The notes beneath the pieces were generated by a model. That model was not told where the DNA came from and did not search any database. It was given only the letters and a program-made list of their open reading frames with translations. Shown piece by piece: positions 10,441 to 44,359 of a DNA stretch of 64,000 nt. How positions within the stretch are numbered: the stretch's first letter is position 1; the number at the start of each line of letters is the position of its first letter. A program made the translations under genes and the position numbers. The stretch comes from Bacteroides mediterraneensis (GTDB lineage Bacteria; Bacteroidota; Bacteroidia; Bacteroidales; Bacteroidaceae), in assembly GCF_016900355.1 (NCBI RefSeq), contig NZ_JACJKA010000002.1, positions 124,001 to 188,000 on the forward strand. Direction: 5' to 3'.

Positions 10441-10544
10441 TATGTTGTAGGTTTTCTGAGGTGGAAACGTATGTTTCCCATTCGCGAAACGTACGTCTCT
10501 CCGTGCGGAAACGTACGTTTTCCACAAGGGAAACGTAAAAAAGA
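10441..10544. repeat. Array of 16-bp palindrome-like units with 22-bp period (array 1)
   Basis: Units begin at 10463, 10485, 10507 and 10529, exactly 22 bp apart. The clearest reads GGAAACGTATGTTTCC, followed by a 6-bp spacer that differs each time (CATTCG, CCGTGC, CACAAG). The third (10507-10522) contains the perfect palindrome AAACGTACGTTT. The fourth keeps only the left half, and a decayed unit at 10441-10456 keeps the right half. The period is not a multiple of three, so it is not coding. It lies between the GIN-gene terminator and the GH2 gene. The remaining 10337-10440 contains a related stretch, GTTTGAATGGGGAAACGCAA (10397-10416), and no gene. Confidence 0.85.
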
Positions 10545-31260: not shown

Positions 31261-32574
31261 ATGGCAGAAAAAGAATTCAGACAGGAAGGCGAAAACAGCC
31301 AGTCTGGCCGCGATGGTTACAAGTCTTATAACAAAGAAGGATATAATAAATATGGTAGAGGCGAGAAAAGCAACAGCTATGGTCGCCGTCCGTATAATAA
31401 CAATAGAGAAGGGGGAGAGGGCTATCGCTCTTCATATAATCCCCGTTTCAATAATAACAACGGGGAGGACCGTCCGCAAAGAGGTGGTTACGGCAATCGT
31501 CCGCAGCGTCCTTATGGGAATCGTCCGTATAACAACGAAGGAGGCGAACAGCGTTCTTCTTATAACCCGCGTTTTAATAACAACAACGGCAATCGTCCGC
31601 AGCGTCCTTACGGTAATCGTCCGTATAATAATAATGAAGGAGGCGAACAGCGTCCGTATCGTCCGCGCTTCAACAACGGTGGACAGCAGGGTGGCGAACA
31701 GCGTTCCTATCGTCCGCGGTTTAATAACAGTGGACAGCAGGGTGGCTATGGTCGTCCGCAAGGAGGATACCGTCCACGTACTGCCGACTACAATCCGAAT
31801 GCGAAATATAGCATGAAGAAGCAGATTGAATACAAGGAGGTACTGGCCGATCCGGATGAACCGATTCGTTTGAACAAGTTCCTGGCCAATGCCGGTATTT
31901 GCTCTCGTCGGGAAGCGGATGAATTTATCACTGCCGGAGTGGTGTCTGTCAACGGAGAAGTGGTGACCGAGTTGGGTACAAAAGTCAAACGTTCGGATGA
32001 AGTGAAGTTCCACGACCAGCCGGTGAGCATTGAACGCAAGGTGTATGTGTTGCTCAACAAACCGAAAGATTGCGTAACGACTTCCGACGATCCTCAGGAA
32101 CGCAAAACGGTGATGGATTTCGTGAAAGGGGCCTGCAAGGAACGTATTTATCCGGTAGGACGTCTGGACCGCAATACCACTGGTGTGCTCCTGCTGACGA
32201 ACGACGGAGATTTGGCTTCGAAGCTGACACACCCGAAGTTCCTGAAGAAGAAAATTTACCATGTATACTGTGACAAGAACGTGACGAAAGCAGACTTGGA
32301 TCAGATTGTACAGGGAATTACGCTGGACGACGGTGAAATCCATGCAGATGCTGTCAGCTACGCATCGGATACCGACAAGTCGCAGGTGGGCATTGAAATC
32401 CACTCTGGAAAGAACCGTATCGTACGTCGTATCTTCGAGTCGCTGGGCTACCGGGTAGTGAAACTGGACCGTGTGTATTTTGCCGGACTGACCAAGAAGG
32501 GACTCCGCCGGGGCGACTGGCGTTACCTGACAGAACAGGAAGTGGCCATGTTGCGTATGGGGTCTTTTGAATAA
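31261..32574 (+). CDS. rluB: RluB/RsuA-type pseudouridine synthase with a repeat-rich N-terminal tail
   Basis: The 437-residue protein has an unusually long, low-complexity N-terminus (about 1-180) rich in Gly, Asn, Arg, Tyr and Gln, with recurring RPYGNRPYNN and SSYNPRFNNNN motifs. An S4 domain follows (IRLNKFLANAGICSRREAD, about 200-218), then the RsuA/RluB/RluE catalytic core. GRLDRNTTGVLLLTNDGDL (about 300-318) carries the catalytic Asp. It should modify rRNA in the cytosol. The tail is predicted to be disordered and RNA-binding by composition. At DNA level the tail contains a 96-bp (32-codon) tandem duplication. A terminator follows. Confidence 0.88.
   Translation: MAEKEFRQEGENSQSGRDGYKSYNKEGYNKYGRGEKSNSYGRRPYNNNREGGEGYRSSYNPRFNNNNGEDRPQRGGYGNRPQRPYGNRPYNNEGGEQRSSYNPRFNNNNGNRPQRPYGNRPYNNNEGGEQRPYRPRFNNGGQQGGEQRSYRPRFNNSGQQGGYGRPQGGYRPRTADYNPNAKYSMKKQIEYKEVLADPDEPIRLNKFLANAGICSRREADEFITAGVVSVNGEVVTELGTKVKRSDEVKFHDQPVSIERKVYVLLNKPKDCVTTSDDPQERKTVMDFVKGACKERIYPVGRLDRNTTGVLLLTNDGDLASKLTHPKFLKKKIYHVYCDKNVTKADLDQIVQGITLDDGEIHADAVSYASDTDKSQVGIEIHSGKNRIVRRIFESLGYRVVKLDRVYFAGLTKKGLRRGDWRYLTEQEVAMLRMGSFE
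31491..31682 (+). repeat. In-frame 96-bp tandem repeat in the RluB tail
   Basis: The segment beginning CGGCAATCGTCCGCAG at 31491 recurs at 31587, exactly 96 bp (32 codons) later. The encoded units start GNRPQRPYGNRPYNN and continue EGGEQR; they diverge toward the end of the second copy (RSSYNPRF versus RPYRPRF). Confidence 0.8.
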
Positions 32575-41087: not shown

Positions 41088-43517
41088 TTACAAGAGCTGG
41101 ATACCTTTGTTCGCTCTTAGGTTGACGGTTTTGGTCTTGCCGTTGAAGCTGACTTTTGTCTTTCCTCCTTTTCGTGCCTGGATGTACAGGGAAGTCACTT
41201 TCCCGTCTTTCCATTCCATGTCGACCACGAAACCTCCACGGGCACAGATGCCTTTCACGCTGCCGTCTTTCCATGCTTCGGGAAGAGCCGGGAGCAGCTG
41301 GATGCTGTTTTCGGACGATTGCATCAGCATTTCAATCACGCCGGCACAACCTCCGAAGTTTCCGTCAATCTGGAACGGAGAATGGGCATCGAGCAGGTTC
41401 GGATACGTACCTCCTCCGCGACGGGCATCTTTTCCTTTGTAGTTGTCCGGGCTGACATAGTTCAGCAGACGGCGATAGATATGGTAGGCATTCTTGCTGT
41501 CTTTCAGGCGGGCATACAAGTTGACACGCCAGCCGGTGCTCCATCCGGTAGTCTTGTCTCCTTTGATTTCCAGCGTACGGGCGCAAGCTTTGGCCAGGTC
41601 GGGAGTGCTTTCCACTGACAGGTGACGGCCCGGATACAAACCGAACAAGTGTGACTGGTGACGGTGTTGCGGGTCTTCATCACTCCAGTCGTGGAACCAT
41701 TCCTGCAGATTACCTTTCTTGCCAATCTGATAAGGTAATATGCGGTCCAGGGTTTTTTCAATCTGTTTCCGGAATTCTTTGTCCGTACCGAGAGCTTCGG
41801 CAGCCTTGGATGCATCAATCAGGCATTCGCGGGTCATGGCCAAGTCGGCTGTACAGCCGTAAGAAGTGGCACCTACATACCCGTCGGGTGTCACGAACTT
41901 GTTCTCCGGAGAAGTTCCCGGTGAAGTAATCAGTTTGCCGTCCTTTTCAATCAACCAGTTCAGGCAGAATTCGGCAGCCCCTTTCAGTACCGGATAATAT
42001 TGCTGAAGGAAGGCCTTGTCTTGGGTGAAGGCATAGCGTTCCCAAATATGGGTTGACAGCCAGGCACCTCCCATGGTCCAGCAAGCCCATGAAGGGTCAC
42101 CCCCGTGCAGACCGACCGGACAGGTCATGGCCCATATATCCGTGTTCTGTCCCAGACACCATCCTTTGTCTACGCCATAATAGGCCTTGGCCGTTTCTTC
42201 CCCTGTATGTTGCAGGTTGGCGATGAATTCCATCAGCGGGCGGTGCATCTCACTCAGGTTGGCCGTTTCGGCAGCCCAGTAATTTTCCTCTAAGTTGATG
42301 TTGCTGGTATAGTTGCAGCTCCAGGGTGGAAGCAGCTTTTCGTTCCACAGTCCTTGCAGGTTGGCCGGAACCCCCGGGGTACGCGAACTGGAAATGAGCA
42401 GGTAGCGGCCGTACTGGAAATACAAGGCTTCCAGTTCCGGGTTCTTCTGGGCTTTGTCGGTATATTGCAGCAACTGTACGTCAGTCGGCAGGCTGGCAAT
42501 GGCTTTGTCGGTCGTGCCGAGATTCAGTTCTACCCGGTTGAAGAACGACTGGTAGTCGGCCACGTGGGCCTTTTCAAGTGTGTCGAATGATTTCTGTGCG
42601 GCCCGGTTCATTCGCTGTGCTACCAGGTTTCGGTAGTCACGGCCTTCTTTCATCGGGTCCTTATCGAAGCCGTTGAAGCTGGTCACGTTGGCCACTAAAA
42701 TCAGCGCCTCTTTCCCGCCGGCTATCTTCAGTTCACCCGACGGGAAACTCTTCACCTGGCTGTTGGGGGCAATTACCCGGATCAGGGTGCGGAAATGCGT
42801 GCCCCGTTCCGGATTGTACAGGTGCTTGTTTTTCATGTCATCGAGATACACCGGATAAGAATGGTAGGCAGCATAGCCTTCCGCAGAGATTTCATTGCCT
42901 GTGGCTGTAGTGGCATGAGGCAGAAGTGAGTTGAAGGCAAGTGTAGCTTGAAGTCCCTTTTCACTTTCCGTCTGCAGACGGAGTACGAGGACAGAGTCAG
43001 GAGCCGAAGCGAAATAATCGCAGGAGAAAGCCTTTCCGTTCCGCTGGTAGCTGGTCCGGGCGAGTGCCTGCCGGATGTCCAGTGTCCGCTGGTATCCGGT
43101 TATCTTTGCAGGGGTGTCCAAGTAGGTGATGGAGAGCTGTCCCAGCGGCTGGTAGTTTTCACTGTAGTGTCCCTGCACCTTTCGTTGGGCGAGGTCTGCG
43201 CCTCGGTAGTCTTCCTTGTCAAGCAAGGCCCGGATTTCCGGGATGGCCTTGTAGGCATCGGGCGTCGTGACTTTCCGGTCAGGTTCACCGGTCCATAGTG
43301 TCAAGTCGTTCAGGGAGAGGACGTCTTTGTCCGTGCCTCCATAAAGAATGGCTCCCATCGTGCCGTTTCCGATGACCAGAGCCTCTTCGAAATATTCCGC
43401 AGGCCGGTCGTAATGCAGCACCAGCTGGTTTTGTGCGGAAAGTGGGAATGTAGGCAATGAAATGGTGCAGGCCATTACCACAATGCCCTTCCATTTACGA
43501 ATAAAAATACTTTTCAT
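41088..43517 (-). CDS. Secreted GH95 alpha-L-fucosidase/galactosidase family enzyme
   Basis: The 809-residue enzyme starts with a signal peptide (MKSIFIRKWKGIVVMACTIS and on to PLSA). This fixes the start at 43517 rather than an ATG at 43685, which lies in the repeat array. An N-terminal beta-domain (ALVIGNGTMGAILYGG) precedes the (alpha/alpha)6 barrel. CNYTSNINLEENYWAAE holds the paired Asn residues used in GH95 catalysis, and IDGNFGGCAGVIEML the C-terminal catalytic Asp region. GH95 enzymes remove alpha-1,2-L-fucose or alpha-L-galactose by inversion. It is a lone gene; array 2 lies 102-227 bp upstream. Confidence 0.9.
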   Translation of the reverse strand: MKSIFIRKWKGIVVMACTISLPTFPLSAQNQLVLHYDRPAEYFEEALVIGNGTMGAILYGGTDKDVLSLNDLTLWTGEPDRKVTTPDAYKAIPEIRALLDKEDYRGADLAQRKVQGHYSENYQPLGQLSITYLDTPAKITGYQRTLDIRQALARTSYQRNGKAFSCDYFASAPDSVLVLRLQTESEKGLQATLAFNSLLPHATTATGNEISAEGYAAYHSYPVYLDDMKNKHLYNPERGTHFRTLIRVIAPNSQVKSFPSGELKIAGGKEALILVANVTSFNGFDKDPMKEGRDYRNLVAQRMNRAAQKSFDTLEKAHVADYQSFFNRVELNLGTTDKAIASLPTDVQLLQYTDKAQKNPELEALYFQYGRYLLISSSRTPGVPANLQGLWNEKLLPPWSCNYTSNINLEENYWAAETANLSEMHRPLMEFIANLQHTGEETAKAYYGVDKGWCLGQNTDIWAMTCPVGLHGGDPSWACWTMGGAWLSTHIWERYAFTQDKAFLQQYYPVLKGAAEFCLNWLIEKDGKLITSPGTSPENKFVTPDGYVGATSYGCTADLAMTRECLIDASKAAEALGTDKEFRKQIEKTLDRILPYQIGKKGNLQEWFHDWSDEDPQHRHQSHLFGLYPGRHLSVESTPDLAKACARTLEIKGDKTTGWSTGWRVNLYARLKDSKNAYHIYRRLLNYVSPDNYKGKDARRGGGTYPNLLDAHSPFQIDGNFGGCAGVIEMLMQSSENSIQLLPALPEAWKDGSVKGICARGGFVVDMEWKDGKVTSLYIQARKGGKTKVSFNGKTKTVNLRANKGIQLL

Positions 43518-43618
43518 AGTTAGTGTGTGTGTTAAAAAAGAAATCAGTCGCAAGTTATCAAGAAAATTTCGGAAAGGCAAAAAATGGACTTTAAACATGT
43601 AAAAAAGTAAGTGTAAAA

Positions 43619-43744
43619 AAACGTCTTTGCGTTTGAATGGAAACGCAAGTGCATTTGAAGTCAAACGCAAGTACGTTTCATTCAAAACGCAAGGACGTTT
43701 TATTTCAAACGCAAAGGCGTTTCAGTCCAAACGCACTTGCGTTT
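43619..43744. repeat. Array of six 16-bp palindrome-like units, exact 22-bp period (array 2)
   Basis: Units start at 43619, 43641, 43663, 43685, 43707 and 43729. Each follows AAACGyNNNNrCGTTT closely, e.g. AAACGCAAGTACGTTT and AAACGCACTTGCGTTT. The five 6-bp spacers all differ (GAATGG, GAAGTC, CATTCA, TATTTC, CAGTCC). The 22-bp period excludes coding. It lies between the GH95 start and the rpmE2 terminator, and it shares period, unit size and spacer size with array 1. Confidence 0.92.
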
Positions 43745-43771
43745 TTTCGGGGGAATCTGAACGGTCACAAA

Positions 43772-43806
43772 AAAAGCCTTCCCATCGTCACGATGGAAAG
43801 GCTTTT
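43772..43806. terminator. Terminator of rpmE2
   Basis: AAAAGCCTT-CCATCG / CGATGG-AAGGCTTTT around TCA, with A- and T-runs on both sides. It serves the minus-strand L31 gene. Confidence 0.8.
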
Positions 43807-43832
43807 CTTTATTTTTCCCGAAAAATAATCAA

Positions 43833-44087
43833 TTATTTTTTCTTGTGGTTTGCATAACGGCTCATGAACTTGTCCACACGTCCTGCTGTATCCACCAGTT
43901 TAGACTTACCAGTGTAGAACGGGTGAGATGAGCTAGAGATTTCCAGCTTAACCAACGGATAAGTTTCACCTTCGAATTCAATTGTGTCTTTAGTTGCACA
44001 AGTTGAACGAGACAGGAACATGTCACCGTTTGACATGTCTTTAAATACTACCGGACGGTAGTTTTCAGGATGAATGCCTTTTTTCAT
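43833..44087 (-). CDS. rpmE2: 50S ribosomal protein L31 type B
   Basis: The 84-residue protein begins [20 protein letters not shown] and has [20 protein letters not shown]. It lacks the zinc-binding Cys pairs of type A L31, so it is the zinc-independent type B form. The tail SRYANHKKK is basic. A minus-strand -7 box (44172-44179) precedes it and a terminator follows. Confidence 0.95.
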
Positions 44088-44171
44088 TTTAGTATATACT
44101 TTTTGTTGTTATTATTGACAAAAAAATATGTGGTAACACTGATAAAGTGTGTAATGGTCTATTTCGGGTTG

Positions 44172-44179
44172 CAAAGATA
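44172..44179 (-). promoter_or_regulatory. -7 box of rpmE2
   Basis: TATCTTTG on the minus strand, about 85 nt before the ATG. No clear -33. Confidence 0.45.
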
Positions 44180-44359
44180 CGCTATTTCTTTGAAACTAAA
44201 AAGAAATCACCCAAAAATATTCTATCCGTCAAAGGCTTTTATAAAAAGGTGGCCTGATTTTTGTCATATCTACTTTGCATCCTTGCCGCATGTACAGTAA
44301 ATATTTCGGTTCGGATTGATTTGCCTCAAGAAAAGAAAGAAAATCTATGAGGTAGTGTG

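Follow-up and report, generated by a model that had tools for sequence, protein, structure and literature searches.

Palindrome arrays at a 22-bp step in Bacteroides mediterraneensis and its relatives: candidate DNA-wrapping sites along the chromosome

Introduction

What keeps a row of short palindromes in exact register while the DNA between them drifts? The question is raised by a 64,000-nucleotide stretch of the Bacteroides mediterraneensis genome ("the window" below means this whole stretch), in which reading of the sequence and a model search place six 16-bp units of the form AAACG-Y-NNNN-R-CGTTT at positions 43619-43744, with no strand assigned. The units start at 43619, 43641, 43663, 43685, 43707 and 43729, so that every step is exactly 22 bp, and are separated by five different 6-mers (GAATGG, GAAGTC, CATTCA, TATTTC and CAGTCC); the step and the five differing spacers are as the original prediction had described. 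In unit 2, CATTT replaces CGTTT; the other five of the six match the pattern exactly.

The array lies between two genes on the minus strand. The first is GH95-like (41088-43517; the name comes from the earlier description, and look-ups covered the ORF and its relatives); its ATG is at 43517 and the nearest array unit begins 102 bp away, the distance first reported. The GH95 of a B. mediterraneensis record is 93% identical to it. The second is an 84-aa ORF (43833-44087, minus strand), which we take to be ribosomal protein L31 type B (rpmE2). It is followed at its 3' side by an intrinsic-terminator-like signal of its own, an inverted repeat plus T-run at 43769-43809 (minus strand), distinct from the array. 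Elsewhere in the window, a 51-bp tandem repeat occupies 31642-31746 (2.1 copies, 88% matches).

Could such an array arise by chance? Single loose units are unremarkable: at up to one mismatch the window has seven matches, the mean over shuffles is 2.9, and seven or more were reached in 5 of 100 shuffles. Across the window's own genome, a three-step 22-bp pattern (up to two mismatches) has 283 forward and 278 reverse matches, as against 18 and 7 for the same pattern read backwards; a stricter version (up to one mismatch) gives 179/179 matches and the control 0/0. The 22-bp array is far beyond chance, unlike a lone loose unit. Nor does it resemble a CRISPR, in which repeat-spacer units are much longer than 22 bp and repeats are nearly identical; with a 22-bp step and divergent units, it is indeed too short in period, as had been judged at the outset.

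A dispersed family with a rigid frame

Scanning the window's own genome (G000) with a covariance model trained on eight arrays gave at least 60 such arrays, here called type A, a lower bound because 150 of 377 candidates were scored. A second genome (G007; main contig 4,034,845 bases), taken as a second species, has at least 59, a list that omits two weak matches at 3903125 and 3949210. Arrays hold four to seven units each, as chained by script, a few end units being doubtful. The step is 22 bp in 266 of 270 cases in G000 and in 223 of 231 in G007. Half-site positions are 92-100% conserved across 328 units, in 318 of which the central four bases are AAGT, AAGG, AAAG, CAAA, CGAA or CTAA (on either strand); the spacers, strand-collapsed, comprise 156 distinct 6-mers among 266. 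An A-run precedes the arrays and a T-run follows them. None of the 60 arrays in G000 falls within a called gene, and three are at contig or locus edges.

Two observations bear on how individual arrays may change. Two arrays lying 41 kb apart on one contig (L095 and L100, contig C44) have their first and last units and 3' flank in common, which suggests exchange between arrays; and at a locus of a related genome (L312, G034 C1:366309-369357), five nearly identical 22-bp units stand in a row, a recent tandem expansion that suggests how arrays grow.

Phased arms outside the arrays

The regularity does not end with the last unit. Outside the arrays, A/T content oscillates with a period of 11.5 bp for ~60 bp per side, with peaks near -13, -25, -36, -47 and -58 on both sides and no phasing past -60. 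Between -60 and -4, the A/T power at 11.5 bp is 0.30 in G000 and 0.25 in G007, whereas the maxima of 500 permutations are 0.03 and 0.04. The phasing is present on both 5' and 3' sides and is the same around arrays of four, five and six units (33, 51 and 28 arrays, both species pooled). It persists in 34 arms that run within coding sequence (0.468, where shifts that keep the frame reach at most 0.104) and, in both species, in 47 arms that are less than 72% identical. It is clear in another genus, g43 (0.243 against 0.066, 30 flanks), and marginal in three other species of the window's own genus (0.051 against a permutation maximum of 0.042, 48 flanks), a result that counts against wrapping. By extension from this family-level signal, the window copy would have its left arm at 43559-43618 and its right arm at 43745-43804, the latter overlapping the rpmE2 terminator; neither has a strand.

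The flanks could be thought of as decayed units, an idea that was rejected: the places where decayed AAA/TTT should be found are, roughly, those of the A/T troughs (near -7, -18, -30 and -42). As to intrinsic curvature, a rough wedge-model estimate on 59 arrays showed no net bend.

What could read such an element? Half-sites average one per 11 bp and therefore lie on one helix face. The alternating half-sites, the rigid 22-bp step, the phased arms of fixed length and a near symmetry between strands (see below) fit a wrapping protein oligomer. A putative dimeric or oligomeric protein would read alternating AAACG and CGTTT half-sites, and the DNA would wrap or bend over the protein surface along the whole array and the phased arms of ~60 bp to either side. 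With moderate confidence, we favor the interpretation that the arrays are DNA-wrapping nucleoprotein sites that organize the chromosome or its supercoiling; the wrapping, the bound protein and the function are all inferred. In Lrp/AsnC-type and ParR/parC-type arrays, DNA with phased sites, palindromic or repeated, wraps around a protein oligomer, and type A resembles them in its phased repeated sites. We know of no Lrp/AsnC-type or ParR/parC-type arrays in such number along a chromosome.

Conservation between species

By blastn, 53 of the 60 arrays in G000 were paired with G007; a stricter check of these pairs found both flanks kept in 39, one in 12 and neither in two. In the 19 of 53 pairs that have equal unit numbers and clean steps, changes affect 32 of 980 half-site positions (3%), 82 of 392 center positions (21%) and 185 of 474 spacer positions (39%); the center is exactly inverted in 4 of the 98 units compared. 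The original prediction, that selection acts on a repeated site presented on one face of the helix, is supported by the fixed step together with the gap between half-site and spacer divergence. Unit number is unequal in 32 of the 53 pairs. Arms have diverged further than the outer flanks, part of which is coding (median identity 75% vs 89%), so it is the pattern that is kept, rather than the sequence.

The GH95 locus was followed separately. A scan gave 78 GH95 loci, and the array model was applied to 45 of them (L114-L158); the array stands at the same position in the orthologues of an uncultured Bacteroides, B. mediterraneensis and Phocaeicola plebeius, with no match at the other 42.

How far does the family extend? 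The covariance model matches in 17 of 60 genomes (the window's own included), all of the same genus, and in none of 24 genomes of other genera. The consensus pattern with one mismatch is found in 9 of 251 genomes from this family, counting the window's own, and in 3 of 30 genera, one of which contributes a lone match at a contig end (G116). Centers swap between species inside the constant frame: CCGAAG in G003, AACGGA in G034, ACTTGA, TCAAGA and others in G180, and AGCGCC, GGCGCC or AGCCTG in genus g43. Over 40 loci from other species (two of which, L316 and L336, hold the same array), 96 of 96 steps are 22 bp, partly by construction because the loci were found via the 22-bp pattern or the model. 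In genus g43 (L297-L311), many arrays are bordered by inverted flank motifs of GGGGAT and ATCCCC type, which were not noticed in the window's species. A viral collection yielded one contig with a type A array (L339:11480-11680, center TGCTTA; the contig was read only at the array), where another palindromic array, built on a different consensus, follows it.

A sister family

A sister family, type B (GAAACGTACGTTTC), has the same 22-bp period: GAAACGTAYGTTTC recurs every 22 bp, flanked by terminal half-units. In G000 it occupies 30 places among the 100 matches listed out of 105. One of these is in the window, 33 kb from the type A array, where a whole element stands at 10445-10542 between two plus-strand ORFs: a degenerate left terminal half-unit (10445-10456, minus strand), three GAAACGTAYGTTTC units at 22-bp steps (10464-10521, no strand assigned) and a right terminal half-unit, GGGAAACGTAAAAAA (10528-10542, plus strand). 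The flank data for type B come from 17 distinct arrays of the ~30 places. The G007 list has 32 places; one site missed by the pattern was added by hand (~3316050), a match on contig C6 was omitted, and the places at 963198 and 3781077 share a single matched sequence.

The two types probably serve the same purpose. At the G007 orthologue of one type A locus (L090; flanks 94% and 90% identical), type A is replaced by what we interpret as a degenerate element resembling type B. A second apparent swap (L271/L238) was dropped, since the flank in common is a repeated rRNA-upstream region.

Layout along the chromosome

In G007, whose origin and terminus are known roughly, from GC skew at 20 samples (dnaA, at 3.21 Mb, is off the GC-skew switch and was rejected as an origin marker), type A is centered at 1.92 Mb (Rayleigh p 0.005), closer to the terminus as placed by skew (2.2-2.4 Mb). 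Type B leans to the opposite side, alone not significantly (Rayleigh p 0.12); the positions of the two types differ (permutation p 0.002). The 91 A and B sites also keep their distance: the smallest is 7.4 kb, and the fifth smallest gap is 10.2 kb, where random placement gives 2.5 kb on average; none of 5000 simulations, which placed points anywhere and not in intergenic DNA alone, reached 10.2 kb. For evenness as a whole the result is borderline (p 0.049). Any tolerated insert could acquire such spacing, and likewise a bias toward gene 3' ends, through avoidance of genes and promoters.

All four 16S loci found in G007 (three full, one partial at a contig end) have an array upstream, at a distance of 0.7-1.8 kb: three of these arrays are type B and one is type A. 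The chance of this is ~4e-6 for a 2-kb window chosen after seeing the data, and the cases are not independent because the upstream DNA of the operons is partly duplicated. Beside the type B arrays that precede 16S rRNA genes lies the small RNA FopS (RF04319; L271:1326-1392, L359:1192-1258 and L360:1182-1248).

Could the wrapping protein be gyrase?

DNA gyrase is the first named candidate for the putative wrapping protein, a special case of the wrapping interpretation in which the units would be possible cleavage cores and the arms would lie on the GyrA C-terminal domains. We regard it as unlikely, for all that it has in its favor. According to PMC6379681, the Escherichia coli gyrase motif spans ~130 bp with a 4-bp stagger and 47-bp arms whose 10.75-bp GC periodicity is taken as wrapping, and some BIME-2 arrays are used by gyrase; PMC12393610 gives a 48-bp wrap, and a 2025 preprint describes core preferences and a 10-11 bp periodicity common to three gyrases (PMC12324340). 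Like strong gyrase sites, the arrays have two arms of similar length with ~11-bp A/T-G/C phasing (~60 bp, phased at 11.25-11.5 bp), and the last phased peak stands ~58 bp past the terminal unit (~66 bp from its center) whatever the number of units. The type B center (A-C-GTAC-G-T) also fits the -2A/+6T and +1G/+4C preferences reported in PMC12324340. Type A, however, has neither -4G/+8C nor -2A/+6T on a consensus reading, and type B has only the latter of this pair. Unlike strong gyrase sites, the phasing surrounds a sequence-specific repeat array, and it continues through that array with no unphased central block. Moreover, centers vary among close species, which gyrase should not require; such centers speak for a faster-evolving protein. 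They are left unexplained by wrapping alone and count against the wrapping interpretation as well.

Are the arrays selfish repeats?

A second alternative dispenses with function: the arrays would be selfish or drifting interspersed repeats, REP- or MITE-like, spread and tolerated between genes. With ~60-90 copies per genome, near-identical units in L312 that attest to local tandem growth, units and flank in common between L095 and L100, and one orthologous site at which array and most of the arms are missing as a block (L064; flanks in G007 79% and 74% identical, with a type B array ~2.8 kb away), the idea has some appeal. The arrays are, like E. coli BIME-2/REP, dispersed intergenic imperfect palindromes in arrays; they differ from these in sequence, rigid 22-bp step, free spacers and phased arms. 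The REP/BIME assignment fails because a RAYT gene is lacking: among 12 genomes, PF01797 (Y1/RAYT) matched only in G017 and array-bearing G183, with no match in G155 or in the five array-rich same-genus genomes tested (G000, G007, G003, G008 and G034). The BrickBuilt MITE of Porphyromonas gingivalis is likewise a short tandem unit in the Bacteroidales, but its 23-nt unit, AGAYCATARTATCCTCTCRTRTG, sits inside a MITE with terminal inverted repeats (PMC4596501). In the present arrays, the pooled flanks show A-runs and phasing and no fixed terminal repeat. Positions kept with both flanks in 39 of 60 cases while contents diverge, constraint on half-sites and step, and arms phased within coding sequence further make tolerated repeats rather improbable. 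By analogy, the arrays may work like BIME-2 or strong gyrase sites, a likeness that stops short of membership of either class.

Gene context and strand symmetry

Genes were called with our own caller; arrays at edges were set aside (three in G000, one in G007), and one G007 array overlapped a called gene. Arrays favor convergent gaps (22 of 57 vs 2 of 36 control gaps in G000, p 0.0003; 20 of 57 vs 4 of 37 in G007, p 0.009) and are sparse in divergent ones (10 of 57 vs 16 of 36; 7 of 57 vs 14 of 37), the control gaps being of at least 120 bp, from the same loci and not size-matched. The median distance is 52 and 48 bp to gene 3' ends and 166 and 177.5 bp to gene starts.

Such a location near stop codons and between convergent genes, along with the A-run before and the T-run after arrays, would suit RNA hairpins, as tandem bidirectional terminators or mRNA stabilizers. 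A hairpin would tolerate T..G and not C..A at the inner pair; along the direction of transcription in tandem gaps, the two are equally common (C..A 35 and T..G 33 in G000, 34 and 36 in G007; 69 of each in all), which does not favor an RNA hairpin. CATTT and AAATG are also balanced (10 and 11, both genomes). In a rarer class, again along transcription in tandem gaps, changes that keep pairing do prevail: the two genomes together have 13 cases of TGTTT and 2 of AAACA, which breaks pairing, an imbalance for which RNA pairing or transcription-linked deamination could be the source. Thus, of the proposed selection on DNA or RNA structure, the RNA part is not supported overall, one rarer mismatch class leaning the other way. 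Hairpins would require neither the exact 22-bp register nor the phased arms, the array in the window is found past a separate terminator, and Rfam gave no match at gathering score in window positions 43300-44300; we therefore hold hairpins to be very unlikely.

Last, the palindromic repeated sites could be operators through which a single transcription factor governs ~60 genes, as the window array's place 102 bp upstream of GH95 and its retention there in the orthologues of three other genomes might suggest, but this is the reading we find hardest to credit, given that arrays sit nearer gene 3' ends than starts, are sparse in divergent gaps and have mixed neighbors: 20 sampled genes (10 by NCBIfam, 10 by Pfam; cydB, an ABC-F ATPase, a TrpB-like enzyme, an SbcC-like protein, MgtE and others) have no common function save AraC-type regulators in three. 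The link to GH95 or glycosidases first proposed is not supported. Overall, neither a switch for one gene nor a role mainly at the RNA level is supported.

What the arrays may do

We return to the wrapping interpretation. Period, phasing, conservation of position, overall strand symmetry and the spacing in one genome are observations; the role that would follow is the organization of the chromosome, or the holding or relieving of supercoiling at spaced positions such as gene ends, convergent pairs and the DNA upstream of rRNA operons. Regulation of the neighboring gene would not be the arrays' task. The open-licence literature on such repeats, nucleoid sites and wrapped arrays yielded no description of such an element, in agreement with the initial remark that no described Bacteroides element of this layout was known.

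A broader and more tentative proposal, which we consider possible but doubtful, is that the layout of Phocaeicola chromosomes is set by two wrapping elements, sequence-coded and interchangeable, A weighted toward the terminus half and B toward the origin half, tens of kilobases apart and with one before each rRNA operon, read by a fast-evolving DNA-wrapping protein whose recognition of the center varies between species while the 22-bp frame stays constant. To our knowledge, little is established about chromosome folding and segmentation in the Bacteroidota, a group dominant in the gut. If the arrays are wrapping sites, each genome would offer ~90 precise, testable positions, helical phasing would constrain even coding sequence, and the species-specific centers would suggest that a DNA-binding protein of the chromosome is evolving rapidly; if the layout proposal is true as well, a bacterium would have a code akin to that which positions nucleosomes.
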